Below, one piece after another: positions 7,449 to 15,474 of a stretch of 15,474 nt of DNA. A model generated the notes under the pieces. That model was given only the letters and a program-made list of their open reading frames with translations. It ran no database searches and was not told the origin of the DNA. Within the stretch, counting starts at the first letter, position 1, and every line of letters begins with the position of its first letter. The stretch spans positions 1 to 15,474 of the forward strand of contig CALEDJ010000040.1 of NCBI GenBank assembly GCA_937951485.1, read 5' to 3'. The translations under genes were made by a program, and so were the position numbers. The stretch comes from an uncultured bacterium. Its GTDB lineage: Bacteria > Hydrogenedentota > Hydrogenedentia > Hydrogenedentales > CAILVY01.

Positions 7449-7689
7449 ACGCCGGAACGCATGAATGGACCCGGTGGTGTTGAAGAATCCCAATATCGGC
7501 ACTCAAGCGGAACATACGAGACCGGACGGGATTCATGGGGAGACTGCACCGGAAATCGCGAAATATGTGTAATATATGAAGAAGAGGATGTTGTCTCCAA
7601 GCCTCGGCGTTTTTACATGGATCAGCCCGCAGATACGTCATGAACTCGGATTAAAGCACCCAAGGGATGCCTGATTTGCGTTTCACCGA

Positions 7690-7735
7690 TGAGACACGAC
7701 AGGGCTTGCGTCTCAAAAATTGAAACATATGAGAC
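7690..7735. promoter_or_regulatory. Phased TGAGAC operator array before fic
   Basis: TGAGAC at 7690-7695, its inverse GTCTCA at 7710-7715 and TGAGAC again at 7730-7735 begin exactly 20 bases apart, each separated by 14 bases. They form two overlapping inverted repeats. The last two sites bracket the -35 box of the predicted fic promoter, and the third falls in the promoter spacer, an ideal place for a repressor. The same half-site recurs just after fic. The bound protein is unknown; the winged-helix domain of the Fic protein is the obvious candidate. Confidence 0.5.
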
Positions 7736-7749
7736 AAAAAAGAGATAAT
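7720..7749 (+). promoter_or_regulatory. Predicted sigma70-type promoter of fic
   Basis: TTGAAA (7720-7725) and GATAAT (7744-7749) are 18 bases apart, with five of six consensus bases at the -10 box. The start would be near 7756, about 100 bases before the fic ATG. TGAGAC half-sites flank and overlap it. Confidence 0.5.
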
Positions 7750-7859
7750 AATGCAATAATGAGAGCAGGCAATCATCAGCGAACCTTGACTGTTGGCTGA
7801 ATAGAGAAGCCCAAGGTCGTGCCGGAAAGATACAGATTTTTTGAAGGGAGACTCCGGAT

Positions 7860-8987
7860 ATGTCCACCGTACCAGTCTCTTATCACCTGCATAAATTCCC
7901 TCCCAGGAACCTTGATTTGAACCGGCTGATCCCCTTGATTGGTCCGGCCAATGCCGCCCTTGGCCGTTATGATGGGTTGCTTTCTGCAATCCCCAATTCC
8001 CAAGTGCTACTCTCGCCGCTGACCACGCAGGAAGCGGTGCTGTCTTCAAAAATAGAAGGGACGCAGGTCACCATCAGTGAAGTGCTGGAAGTGGAGGCTG
8101 GGGGAGATTCAGAGGCCATTACGCAACCCAAACGAGAGGATGCGCTGGAGGTGATCAATTACCGGAGAGCAATGCGGGCATGTGTTACGGAACTAAAGAA
8201 TAGACCGCTTTCCCAGTACGTCTTGCGAACGGCACACCGCCTGTTGATGGAAGGTGTTCGTGGGCAGGATAAAGCCCCAGGATACTACCGGCAAGACCAG
8301 AACTGGATTGGTCGGAAAGGTTGCAGTATAGAAGAAGCCGATTTCATCCCGGTGTCGCCACAACACCTCCAATACGGCATGGACATGTGGGAACGATACA
8401 TGATGAGCACTTCGGAGCCGGACCCGCTGGTTCAACTTGCCATCGTTCATGTTGAATTTGAGGCACTCCATCCCTTTAGAGATGGGAACGGCAGATTGGG
8501 GCGAATGCTGATTCCGCTGTTCCTTTATCAGCGTAAACTCCTGGCCAGTCCGGACTTCTATATGAGCGGCTATCTGGAAGCAAACCGGGAGACTTATCTG
8601 GAACGGCTGCGCGCGGTTTCAAGGGATGACGATTGGACAGGGTGGTGCGCTTTTTTCCTTCATGGAATTCGCGAACAGGCGGAGGAAAACGAGCGTAAGG
8701 CCCGCGCCATACTTGCACTCTATGACCGCATCAAGGCCCAGATGGCCGACCTGACTCATTCACAACATTCAATCCGGGCCGTTGATTTCATTTTTCAGGA
8801 ACCCGTCTTTAATGCCCCTTCGTTCACGGAGAACTCGAAAATACCCAAGCCTACGGCGAACCGGATTCTGAATGTTTTGCGAGAACAGGGAATCTTGCGG
8901 ACGCTTCGTAAAGGAAAAGGACGGCGTCCCGGTATTTTTGCATTTCGCGAAGTGCTCAATATTGCAGAAGGCAAGGAGGTGTTTTGA
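7860..8987 (+). CDS. Fic-family protein adenylyltransferase with C-terminal winged helix
   Basis: Fic proteins usually transfer AMP from ATP to a hydroxyl side chain of a target protein. The 375-residue protein has the complete catalytic motif at 204-215, HPFRDGNGRLGR, with catalytic His204 and the anion-binding GNGR. The N-terminal region (about 1-110) contains Ser62-x3-Glu66-Gly67, fitting the (S/T)xxxE(G/N) inhibitory helix, which in this class sits before the Fic core and keeps the enzyme off. Residues of about 290-365 look like a winged helix-turn-helix (KIPKPTANRILNVLREQGIL followed by a basic wing). This is the layout of the Shewanella SoFic type. ATG 7860 follows AAGGGAG (7844-7850). 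It stands alone with no antitoxin gene; the target is unknown. GC is lower than in neighbouring genes, suggesting acquisition. Confidence 0.9.
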   Translation: MSTVPVSYHLHKFPPRNLDLNRLIPLIGPANAALGRYDGLLSAIPNSQVLLSPLTTQEAVLSSKIEGTQVTISEVLEVEAGGDSEAITQPKREDALEVINYRRAMRACVTELKNRPLSQYVLRTAHRLLMEGVRGQDKAPGYYRQDQNWIGRKGCSIEEADFIPVSPQHLQYGMDMWERYMMSTSEPDPLVQLAIVHVEFEALHPFRDGNGRLGRMLIPLFLYQRKLLASPDFYMSGYLEANRETYLERLRAVSRDDDWTGWCAFFLHGIREQAEENERKARAILALYDRIKAQMADLTHSQHSIRAVDFIFQEPVFNAPSFTENSKIPKPTANRILNVLREQGILRTLRKGKGRRPGIFAFREVLNIAEGKEVF

Positions 8988-9009
8988 GTCTCTTTTATTG
9001 AACCTAAGG

Positions 9010-9051
9010 CCTCTTTTGTCTCAAGGAAAGCAAAAAACGAGACACAAGAGG
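9010..9051. promoter_or_regulatory. Inverted repeat after fic with the same TGAGAC half-sites
   Basis: CCTCTTTTGTCTC (9010-9022) and GAGACACAAGAGG (9039-9051) are inverted copies with 12 of 13 matches around a 16-base centre. The GTCTCA and CGAGAC cores start at 9018 and 9038, again 20 bases apart as upstream of the gene. It could be a second operator or act as a hairpin at the end of the fic transcript, but it is not followed by a T-run. It begins 22 bases after the fic stop. Confidence 0.45.
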
Positions 9052-12851: not shown

Positions 12852-13348
12852 ATGAACCGAGACGTACACGAGGAGATACGAAGACTGCGGGATGCCGGCG
12901 TGGCGGAACTTCAACGGCGTTACCGGGAAGTCTTCAACGAGGAGCCGCGGTCGCGCCACCGGACATTCCTTTGGAAGCGCATTGCATGGCGTCTCCAGGC
13001 CCTCTCGGAAGGCGACCTGAGCGAGCGGGCGCGCCGGCGCGCAAAGGAGCTGGCGAACGATGCCGACATCCGTCTTCGCCCGCCGAGAGAGATGATTCAG
13101 CAGTTCGCGCCTGCGCCGCCGGTCACCACGGCCACGCAGATCTCTCACAACCTTGATCCACGCCTCCCCATGCCCGGAACGCTCTTGAGGCGTGAATTCC
13201 GGGGACGCCAGGTTTCCGTGATGGTGTTGCAGGACGGCTTCGAGTGGCAGGGAAGGGTGTATAAGACCCTGAGCGCGGTCGCCAAGGCCATCACCGGCAC
13301 GCAATGGAACGGCTACGACTTCTTCGGCCTTCGCAAGGAAGCGAGTTG

Positions 13349-13349
<1 letters not shown>
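12852..13349 (+). CDS. DUF2924 family protein
   Basis: A 165-residue basic protein. The first half is helical and rich in Arg ([20 protein letters not shown], then [20 protein letters not shown] and [21 protein letters not shown]). The second half has the family-like [20 protein letters not shown], then [20 protein letters not shown] and [12 protein letters not shown]. The latter part suggests a small beta-rich fold with a DNA-binding look. DUF2924 genes are typically placed directly before a large serine recombinase, as here, with a 1-base stop/start overlap (TGATG at 13347-13351). The role is unknown; an accessory factor for the recombinase is a reasonable inference. Confidence 0.85.
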
Positions 13350-13858
<509 letters not shown>

Positions 13859-15474
13859 TGTCCATGAGTTCCTCGGGCGTCCGCGTATCCACGACCGGCT
13901 TCTTGTTCGGGTTGACCGCCTTGAGGTCGTAGACGGCGTCCTCGATCTCCTTGGCCTTGGCGGCGAGGTCCCTCGACTCGCGGGTCAGTTCCTTGACCTT
14001 GGCTTCGGCCTCCTCGATGGCGGCTTCGTCGCGGGGCTTGGCCTTCTTGAGGTCGGCCAGTCGCTGTGTCCACTGGGCCGCTTGCTGCCCCTTCGCCGCG
14101 GCCTGGTCCTTCAAGGGCTGGGCTTCCTCGGCGGCCAGGCGCTTCCGCTCGTCCATGTCCACGGTCCAGGACAACTCGCTGTCTGAGCGCTGCGGCAGCA
14201 GCCGCATGAAGTCCTCGAAGTGCTTGAGCGTCAGCGGCGTCTTCTTGCGTACCTTGATATCCGTCAGGTCGTAGTACCAGATCTGCCGCGTGGGCTGGCC
14301 CTTGGTGAAGAAGAGCAGGTTCGTCTTCACGCCCGCCCCGGCGGCGGTGAACACACCGGCGGGCAGACTCACCACGCACCATAGATCGCATTCGTCCAGC
14401 AGTTTCCGCTTGGTCTTGGTGAAAGCATCCTGATTGGTGCGGAACAGCAATCCTTCATCAAGCACGATGCCGCAGCGCCCGCCGTCGCGCAGGGATCGGA
14501 TGACGTGCTGGAGAAACAGCACCTGCGTGGCGCTGGTTTTGTAGTCGAAGTTGGTCTGGGCTTCCTTGCCTTCCTTACCGCCGAAGGGCGGGTTGGTCAG
14601 GATCACATCGAATGTCTGCGGCGCGCCGTCGAACAGCCCGCCGTAGGTCTCCCGGCCGGTCAGCGTGTTGCCGTGCCAGAGGTTCGGCTTGTCGATCCCG
14701 TGCAGGACGAGGTTTGCCAGGGCGATGGGGTAGATGAGGTTTTCCTTCTCGCGGCCCCAGAAGGTCCGCTGCTTGAGCGTCTCCAACTGCTCGGCCGTGG
14801 CGTCGTTGCCCAGGCTGGCTTTGATGTGCTCGAAACTCTGGGCCAGGAAGCCGCCCGTGCCGCAGCCGGGGTCATAGACGGTCTCGTCGATCTTCGGCTC
14901 GATCACCTGCACCATCGCCCTGATCACCTGGCGCGGCGTGAAGAACTGGCCGCCGTCGTTGCCCTTCTCGCCCATCTTCAGCAGCAGCCCTTCGTAAACC
15001 TGCGAGAGCGTGAAGACGTGCGTCGGGTCAACGGCCTCGGTCGAAAGTTGGTGCACCTTGTCCAGCACATCGAGGAAGTTCCGCTCGGTATCGATGCGGA
15101 CACGCTCGACGCCGGTCATGATCTCGCTGATGACCTTCTGGCGTGGCGTGGCGTCGGGCCGGTTCTTCAGGGCCTTCAGGTGCGGCAGCAACTCCGTGTT
15201 GATGAAGTTGAACAAGGCGTTCTGCGGCGCGTTCTGCAGATCGACGCGCTTATTGGTCTGGCCCTCGGGCAAGGCCTCCGGCGGGCAGCCCCAGTCGCGC
15301 CAGCGATACGGCGGTTCCAGCGACGGCCGGAACGGAACGCCCAGCGCCTCGGCCTCCTGCTCCTCGCGCTCTTCCTTCTCGTCGAGGATGCGCAGGAAGA
15401 GAATCCAGGTGAGTTCCGGCACGTACTGCATCGCGCCGGCGCAGTTGCCGCGCCGCATGATGTCGCAGATGCTC

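Follow-up and report, generated by a model that had tools for sequence, protein, structure and literature searches.

A phased array of inverted half-sites over a fic promoter as a probable operator for Fic's own winged helix, with a putative link to restriction genes in relatives

Which protein reads the three TGAGAC hexamers in front of a fic gene, and which genes would it control? The hexamers are located at 7690–7695 (plus strand), 7710–7715 (minus strand) and 7730–7735 (plus strand) of the window, by which the whole analysed stretch of 15,474 nucleotides is meant. A preliminary description had placed them exactly so, in alternating orientation, and had proposed an autorepressed Fic protein which may be its own regulator or have a regulator recognising these sites. 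The hexamer as such is found five times in the window, with 5.8 occurrences expected, so that lone matches are meaningless and only their arrangement can be informative. As a generic palindrome score for the window was low (z = 1.3), a specific grammar was required.

Scanning 84,980 species genomes for Fic homologues yielded 80 loci, many of them from metagenome assemblies. Comparison of the upstream regions by eye indicated that the half-site letters differ between loci and that the spacing is constant. The array consists of 10-bp half-sites (TGNNNNNCAA) in alternating orientation, arranged as <- N4 -> N6 <- N14/15 -> N6 <- N4 -> over about 94 bp. In the 300 bp upstream of fic the spacing peaks were convergent gaps of 4 (31 pairs), 14 (13 pairs) and 15 (8 pairs) and a divergent gap of 6 (30 pairs), whereas 200 dinucleotide shuffles gave peaks of 3 and 2 at most. 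A scan of 1 kb on each side of fic at 81 loci gave 84 array matches compared with none on the reversed sequence. With a lower threshold an array was recognised at 68 of 80 fic loci, 5' and/or 3' of the gene, and in none of the reversed controls. Twelve of the 80 loci had no recognisable array even at the lowest threshold, and the nine loci of more distant Fic homologues with 35–38% identity (L084 and L086–L093) had none.

When the grammar obtained from the other loci was applied to the window, it matched once in 15,474 bases at a score of 5 or higher, starting at 7676 with a score of 8.5, and not once in the reversed window. No match with a score of 8.5 occurred in 290 kb of reversed flanks plus 994 kb of reversed viral DNA (~1.28 Mb). 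The TGAGAC trio occupies slots b, c, and d in an array of greater extent, which spans 7676–7739, or 7676–7769 if its weak end is included. Slot a (written TGAAACGCAA or TTGCGTTTCA; 7676–7685, minus strand), four bases upstream of slot b, was found by the grammar scan with 5/5 framework matches, as was slot c (TGAGACGCAA; 7706–7715, minus strand), and slots b (TGAGACACGA; 7690–7699, plus strand) and d (TGAGACAAAA; 7730–7739, plus strand) have 4/5 each. The position of slot e is unrecognisable in the window (TGCATTATTA; 7746–7755, minus strand, 3/5), and slot f is weak (TGAGAGCAGG; 7760–7769, plus strand, 2/5). The three-site array of the preliminary description is real but incomplete, the half-site at 7676–7685 and the weak one at 7760 having been missed. 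Its exact 20-bp phasing applies to the starts of the 6-mers but proved to be a by-product of 10-bp half-sites which alternate with N6 and N14 gaps and have their centres 16 and 24 bp apart.

The best promoter of fic, previously described as a good one with its -35 box between the last two sites, was recovered as such. It consists of TTGAAA (-35; 7720–7725, plus strand) and GATAAT (-10; 7744–7749, plus strand) with an 18-nucleotide spacer and a promoter score of 10/12. The -35 box falls within the N14 spacer of slots c and d and is bracketed by them. As judged from the sequence, this position would be compatible with repression, roadblock or activation, and the bracketing of the -35 box suits repression. 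The TCTCA-N14-TGAGA core occurs once in the 4.55-Mb genome, a uniqueness which is weak as proof since about four chance occurrences are expected for ten fixed bases, and a looser 14-base pattern has two genome matches, one of which is the window array. A strict weight matrix with low pseudocount yielded 1.3 for the window as compared to a background mean of -59 and a background maximum of -1.7; the slot-count score was used in its place.

The usual place of the array is on the opposite side of fic, directly past its stop codon, where blind pattern searches of genomes also met arrays. It is found 3' of fic at 57 of 79 loci and 5' at 24 of 77, the window being among the 5' cases, and slot a, the first one, includes the stop codon TGA of fic in one fixed register in 30 of the 44 3' arrays that were scored. 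All of the nine relatives with 71–77% identity have two to four TGAGAC within 110 bp past the fic stop codon, and one of them has a single TGAGAC match upstream of fic. The expectation that the sites would be conserved upstream of orthologues did not hold for the nearest relatives (70–77% identical), which lack an upstream TGAGAC array and carry the sites 3' of fic instead. As the sites lie there, a search of orthologues for upstream TGAGAC only would refute the array wrongly. In the window a degenerate copy spanning 8984–9047 (plus strand) sits where relatives have intact 3' arrays. Its slots a (8984–8993), c (9014–9023), and d (9038–9047) can be recognised in the sequence, with N14 between c and d, slot a overlapping the fic stop codon TGA, and a scan score below 5.

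Arrays on both sides of fic were found at 13 loci with a threshold of 6. At one of the loci with two arrays (L045) the array 5' of fic is repeated almost identically and in direct orientation on the 3' side, flanking bases included, and at another (L038) the slot scores are equal for both arrays; these pairs suggest a duplication of the array-fic unit. Tandem arrays occur at L025, L066, and the G616 locus, where three consecutive palindromic arrays within approximately 500 bp (L217–L225, G616:C21:95822-96331) have fic beside them. A different repeat set, in which GTATAC occurs several times, partly 10 bp apart, is located about 60 bp upstream of fic at L015, where the usual array is on the 3' side of the gene.

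What lies behind the array in the relatives points to restriction genes. A restriction-modification homologue is present in the flanks of 38 of 80 loci, a count which was obtained with a limited query set and includes the distant hsdM-like gene of the window. Pfam searches assigned downstream genes to type I HsdR, type III Res, and MmeI-like enzymes, and upstream genes to HsdS, HsdM or Mod. Type I and type III loci are often ordered M-S-fic-array-R, and the R gene begins a short way past the array. The layouts seen in relatives are hsdM-hsdS-fic-array-hsdR, mod-fic-array-res, and array-fic-mmeI, the last one at several MmeI-like loci (L029, L040, L074), and irrespective of whether the array is 3' or 5' of fic it stands ahead of the nuclease-bearing transcription unit. 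Several of the nearest relatives have fic directly behind hsdS. In most of the nine the 3' TGAGAC sites are followed by a restriction-subunit gene, so that simple autorepression would be only part of the likely role. Fic and sites placed in the manner of a controller, between methylase or specificity genes and nuclease genes, are found in many relatives and not in the window, where carB precedes fic, hisH follows it, and no nuclease gene is adjacent. The type I methylase (HsdM-like) gene of the window is located at the contig end, 5.3 kb downstream of fic on the opposite strand (13770–15458, minus strand). Beside it there is a resolvase-like reading frame (13304–13858, plus strand). By analogy with C proteins we infer that Fic may act as a controller in restriction loci; a search of titles and abstract openings outside the subscription literature found no paper describing Fic as a controller of restriction.

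The fic gene of the window (7860–8987, plus strand) encodes 375 amino acids, for which the domain search and an AlphaFold2 model indicated Fic_N (Pfam PF13784, E 3.3e-25), Fic (PF02661, E 1.9e-19), and a C-terminal winged helix. The Fic motif HPFRDGNGRLGR at residues 204–215 (8469–8504, plus strand) follows the Fic pattern HxFx[D/E]GNGRxxR. The N-terminal inhibitory helix, with the pattern [S/T]xxxE[G/N], contains the motif SSKIEG at residues 62–67 (8043–8060, plus strand), in which S62, I65, and E66 are invariant in 65 homologues. The winged helix-turn-helix, already claimed in the preliminary description, was borne out by the model at residues 304–361 (8769–8942, plus strand; mean pLDDT 92.8), with helices at 304–313, 319–325, and 330–342 and strands at 347–350 and 359–361. 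The helix at residues 330–342 (KPTANRILNVLRE; 8847–8885, plus strand) is the putative recognition helix, as judged from the model and from the covariation of K330 described below. By sequence and predicted structure the protein is a putative class II AMP-transferase of the SoFic type.

Two lines of evidence bear on the reader of the array. Unbiased pattern searches in 386 and 195 genomes (with some overlap; about 570 chromosomes) yielded eight array loci, seven of which adjoin fic. The flanking genes across unrelated loci have no gene in common and no shared regulator, and a shared neighbour regulator was rejected as array reader on this ground. The second line is covariation between half-site letters and protein residues, which was judged against the other protein columns with statistics that ignore kinship among loci. 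K330 ranks first of 313 alignment columns for half-site position 5, with an adjusted eta-squared of 0.76, and is the top column for positions 4 (G) and 5 (C, A); for positions 3 and 6, P331 and N334 rank close to the top. With all letters taken together K330 ranks first or second of 304–320 columns at four redundancy cut-offs, and a few columns outside the helix (K12, A107, R103) score almost as high. A recognition helix starting with KPTA goes with the half-site TGAG[A/T]C, GRTARR with TGGCC, and PPTARR with TGATCG, and alanine in place of threonine at the third helix position goes with TGT or TGC half-sites in most cases. From these comparisons of sequences, the array is seen to accompany this Fic subfamily with half-site letters which covary with its predicted recognition helix, and the winged helix of Fic itself appears to be the likeliest reader.

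The same grammar is also found in viruses. In IMG/VR the four-slot pattern (20 fixed bases) had 96 matches with N14 and 12 with N15, and none with altered spacings. The virus contigs (L098–L205) contain 90 non-identical four-slot arrays, nearly all without fic. Fic is near the array in two of these contigs only (L107 and L150), and the same two were the only ones detected by a winged-helix profile run over 12,744 reading frames of virus contigs. When 40 whole virus records, one of L107 and L150 included, were searched, that one alone had Fic. A Fic or a Fic-type winged helix was thus rejected as the cause of the virus arrays. The genes beside the arrays are diverse phage genes, with DUF932 as the commonest, and the region around the array in the L175 contig had no match among annotated phage records. 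Since the grammar occurs in virus contigs without Fic, either a host Fic reads these arrays or another protein can do so; from their sequence they are possible decoys or operators exploiting the host Fic. Among chromosomes, L216 (G485:C15:15758-15813) is a perfect array whose half-sites are TGATCGACAA-like and which has no fic beside it; its genome contains a second array, of the TGAGAC type, adjoining fic.

It is hence conceivable that the array is the operator of another regulator, a host or mobile-element protein for which fic is just one target. The 90 virus arrays, nearly all from searched DNA with neither fic nor a detectable Fic-type winged helix, as well as L216 would agree with this, but such a regulator is unlikely in view of the blindly found chromosomal arrays which adjoin fic, the lack of a neighbour gene common to the loci, and half-site letters which follow the Fic recognition helix. 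Very unlikely is a recombination or cassette boundary, an attachment or resolution site which moves fic and other genes. While arrays on both flanks of fic, tandem arrays, a divergent N6 pair resembling a recombinase core, and the occurrence in virus contigs could be explained in this way, the genes beside the virus arrays vary widely, the 100 neighbour proteins scanned including one integrase, the placement ahead of the nuclease gene tracks gene regulation, and the covariation with the Fic winged helix would be left unexplained.

An action of the array as RNA, in the form of terminating or attenuating hairpins past fic or of a structured leader, was also considered, because neighbouring half-sites in inverted orientation could pair as hairpins with N4 and N6 loops and most arrays begin at the stop codon. 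For half-site positions 3–7 the identity is 0.44–0.69 within an array as compared to 0.36 between loci. Hairpin pairing would need adjacent arms to be alike; the opposite was mostly found, with 0.50 for slots a-b, 0.47 for b-c, 0.49 for d-e, and 0.49 for e-f as against 0.69 for c-f, 0.69 for d-f, and 0.67 for c-d. Slots c, d, and f are most alike although f adjoins neither c nor d, which favours independent protein-binding sites, and the hairpin reading was rejected on this comparison of arms. The window array furthermore spans the -35 box, so that a large part of it precedes the transcript, and the plus strand around the 5' and 3' window arrays showed no T-tract terminator, which makes a role as RNA highly improbable. 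A chance arrangement of short repeats, with which the lack of TGAGAC enrichment in the window would be compatible, has a negligible probability in view of the single grammar match at the array and the empty reversed controls.

The reading preferred here, with a probability of roughly 70%, is that the TGAGAC trio forms the core of an operator with multiple half-sites for the winged helix of Fic itself, serving autoregulation and, in relatives, restriction-gene control. A dimer of the class II Fic would bind convergent half-sites N4 or N14 apart, and neighbouring dimers may be cooperative along the array. In the window, occupation of slots c and d around the -35 box would repress fic. In relatives with a nuclease unit behind the array, Fic would probably act in a controller-like manner and set the expression of nuclease versus methylase. 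The fic gene of the window resembles a solitary descendant of such loci which may have kept the 5' operator while the 3' copy decayed. The earlier proposal of an autorepressed Fic acting as its own regulator is therefore retained as regards the operator-like array over the fic promoter and the likeliest reader, and is too narrow in that simple autorepression would be only part of the role.

Fic proteins that carry a DNA-binding tail occur widely. A conserved operator code together with a matching recognition helix would give a predicted target for each such Fic, and the code ties Fic to restriction genes, where the timing of the nuclease affects survival. The arrays in virus contigs would, if a host Fic binds them, suggest competition over this control step. 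That Fic-winged-helix enzymes form a so far overlooked class of restriction-modification controllers, with a fixed code of six half-sites, and that the phage arrays of four half-sites serve to titrate the host Fic regulator or to hijack it, is a tentative and rather doubtful extension.

Among the closest known systems is CccR of Yersinia pseudotuberculosis, a Fic protein with a C-terminal helix-turn-helix which was characterised as an autorepressor by EMSA, footprinting, ITC, and reporter assays (PMC9755527). It provides, by analogy, an experimental precedent for autorepression by Fic. Its operator consists of inverted 10-bp half-sites, AGATAATCAT-N26-ATGATAATCT, near the -35 and -10 boxes and requires the dimer (PMC9755527). 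The window, too, has a Fic with a C-terminal winged helix and inverted 10-bp half-sites over its own -35 box. However, in place of one pair at N26 there is a phased array with N4, N6, and N14/15, so that the window Fic may be said to work like CccR and not to be a CccR. CccR is a secreted toxin with FtsZ as its target, and a link to restriction genes is not reported for it in the part of PMC9755527 drawn upon, whereas the window Fic shows no hint of secretion. CccR was not recognised by name among the fold-comparison matches listed, which excludes nothing.

SoFic (SO_4266) of Shewanella oneidensis (3eqx, 3zcn) shares the full-length architecture (Z 39.0, 2.8 A over 353 residues; Foldseek E 3.5e-18, aligned over residues 2–373 of the window Fic) at only about 25% identity, and as of PMC10628234, in the part drawn upon, DNA binding by it had not been demonstrated. 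CbFic2 of Coxiella burnetii (8cil) has a winged helix which binds DNA with nanomolar affinity, with changes in AMPylation activity; according to the same part of that report the tests used random DNA only, no operator was defined, and the target is histone H3 (PMC10628234). CbFic2 shares with the window Fic the class II type and the winged helix.

C (controller) proteins are a separate helix-turn-helix protein family with no enzyme domain. In type II restriction-modification systems they are encoded together with the methylase, have their sites by their own gene and ahead of that for the nuclease, and are thought to time nuclease expression (PMC3115060). The window Fic differs from their small fold in being a 375-amino-acid enzyme with a predicted winged helix, and the Fic-linked systems are type I, type III, and MmeI-like. 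Fic in the relatives is likewise encoded with the methylase and has the putative sites before the nuclease gene.
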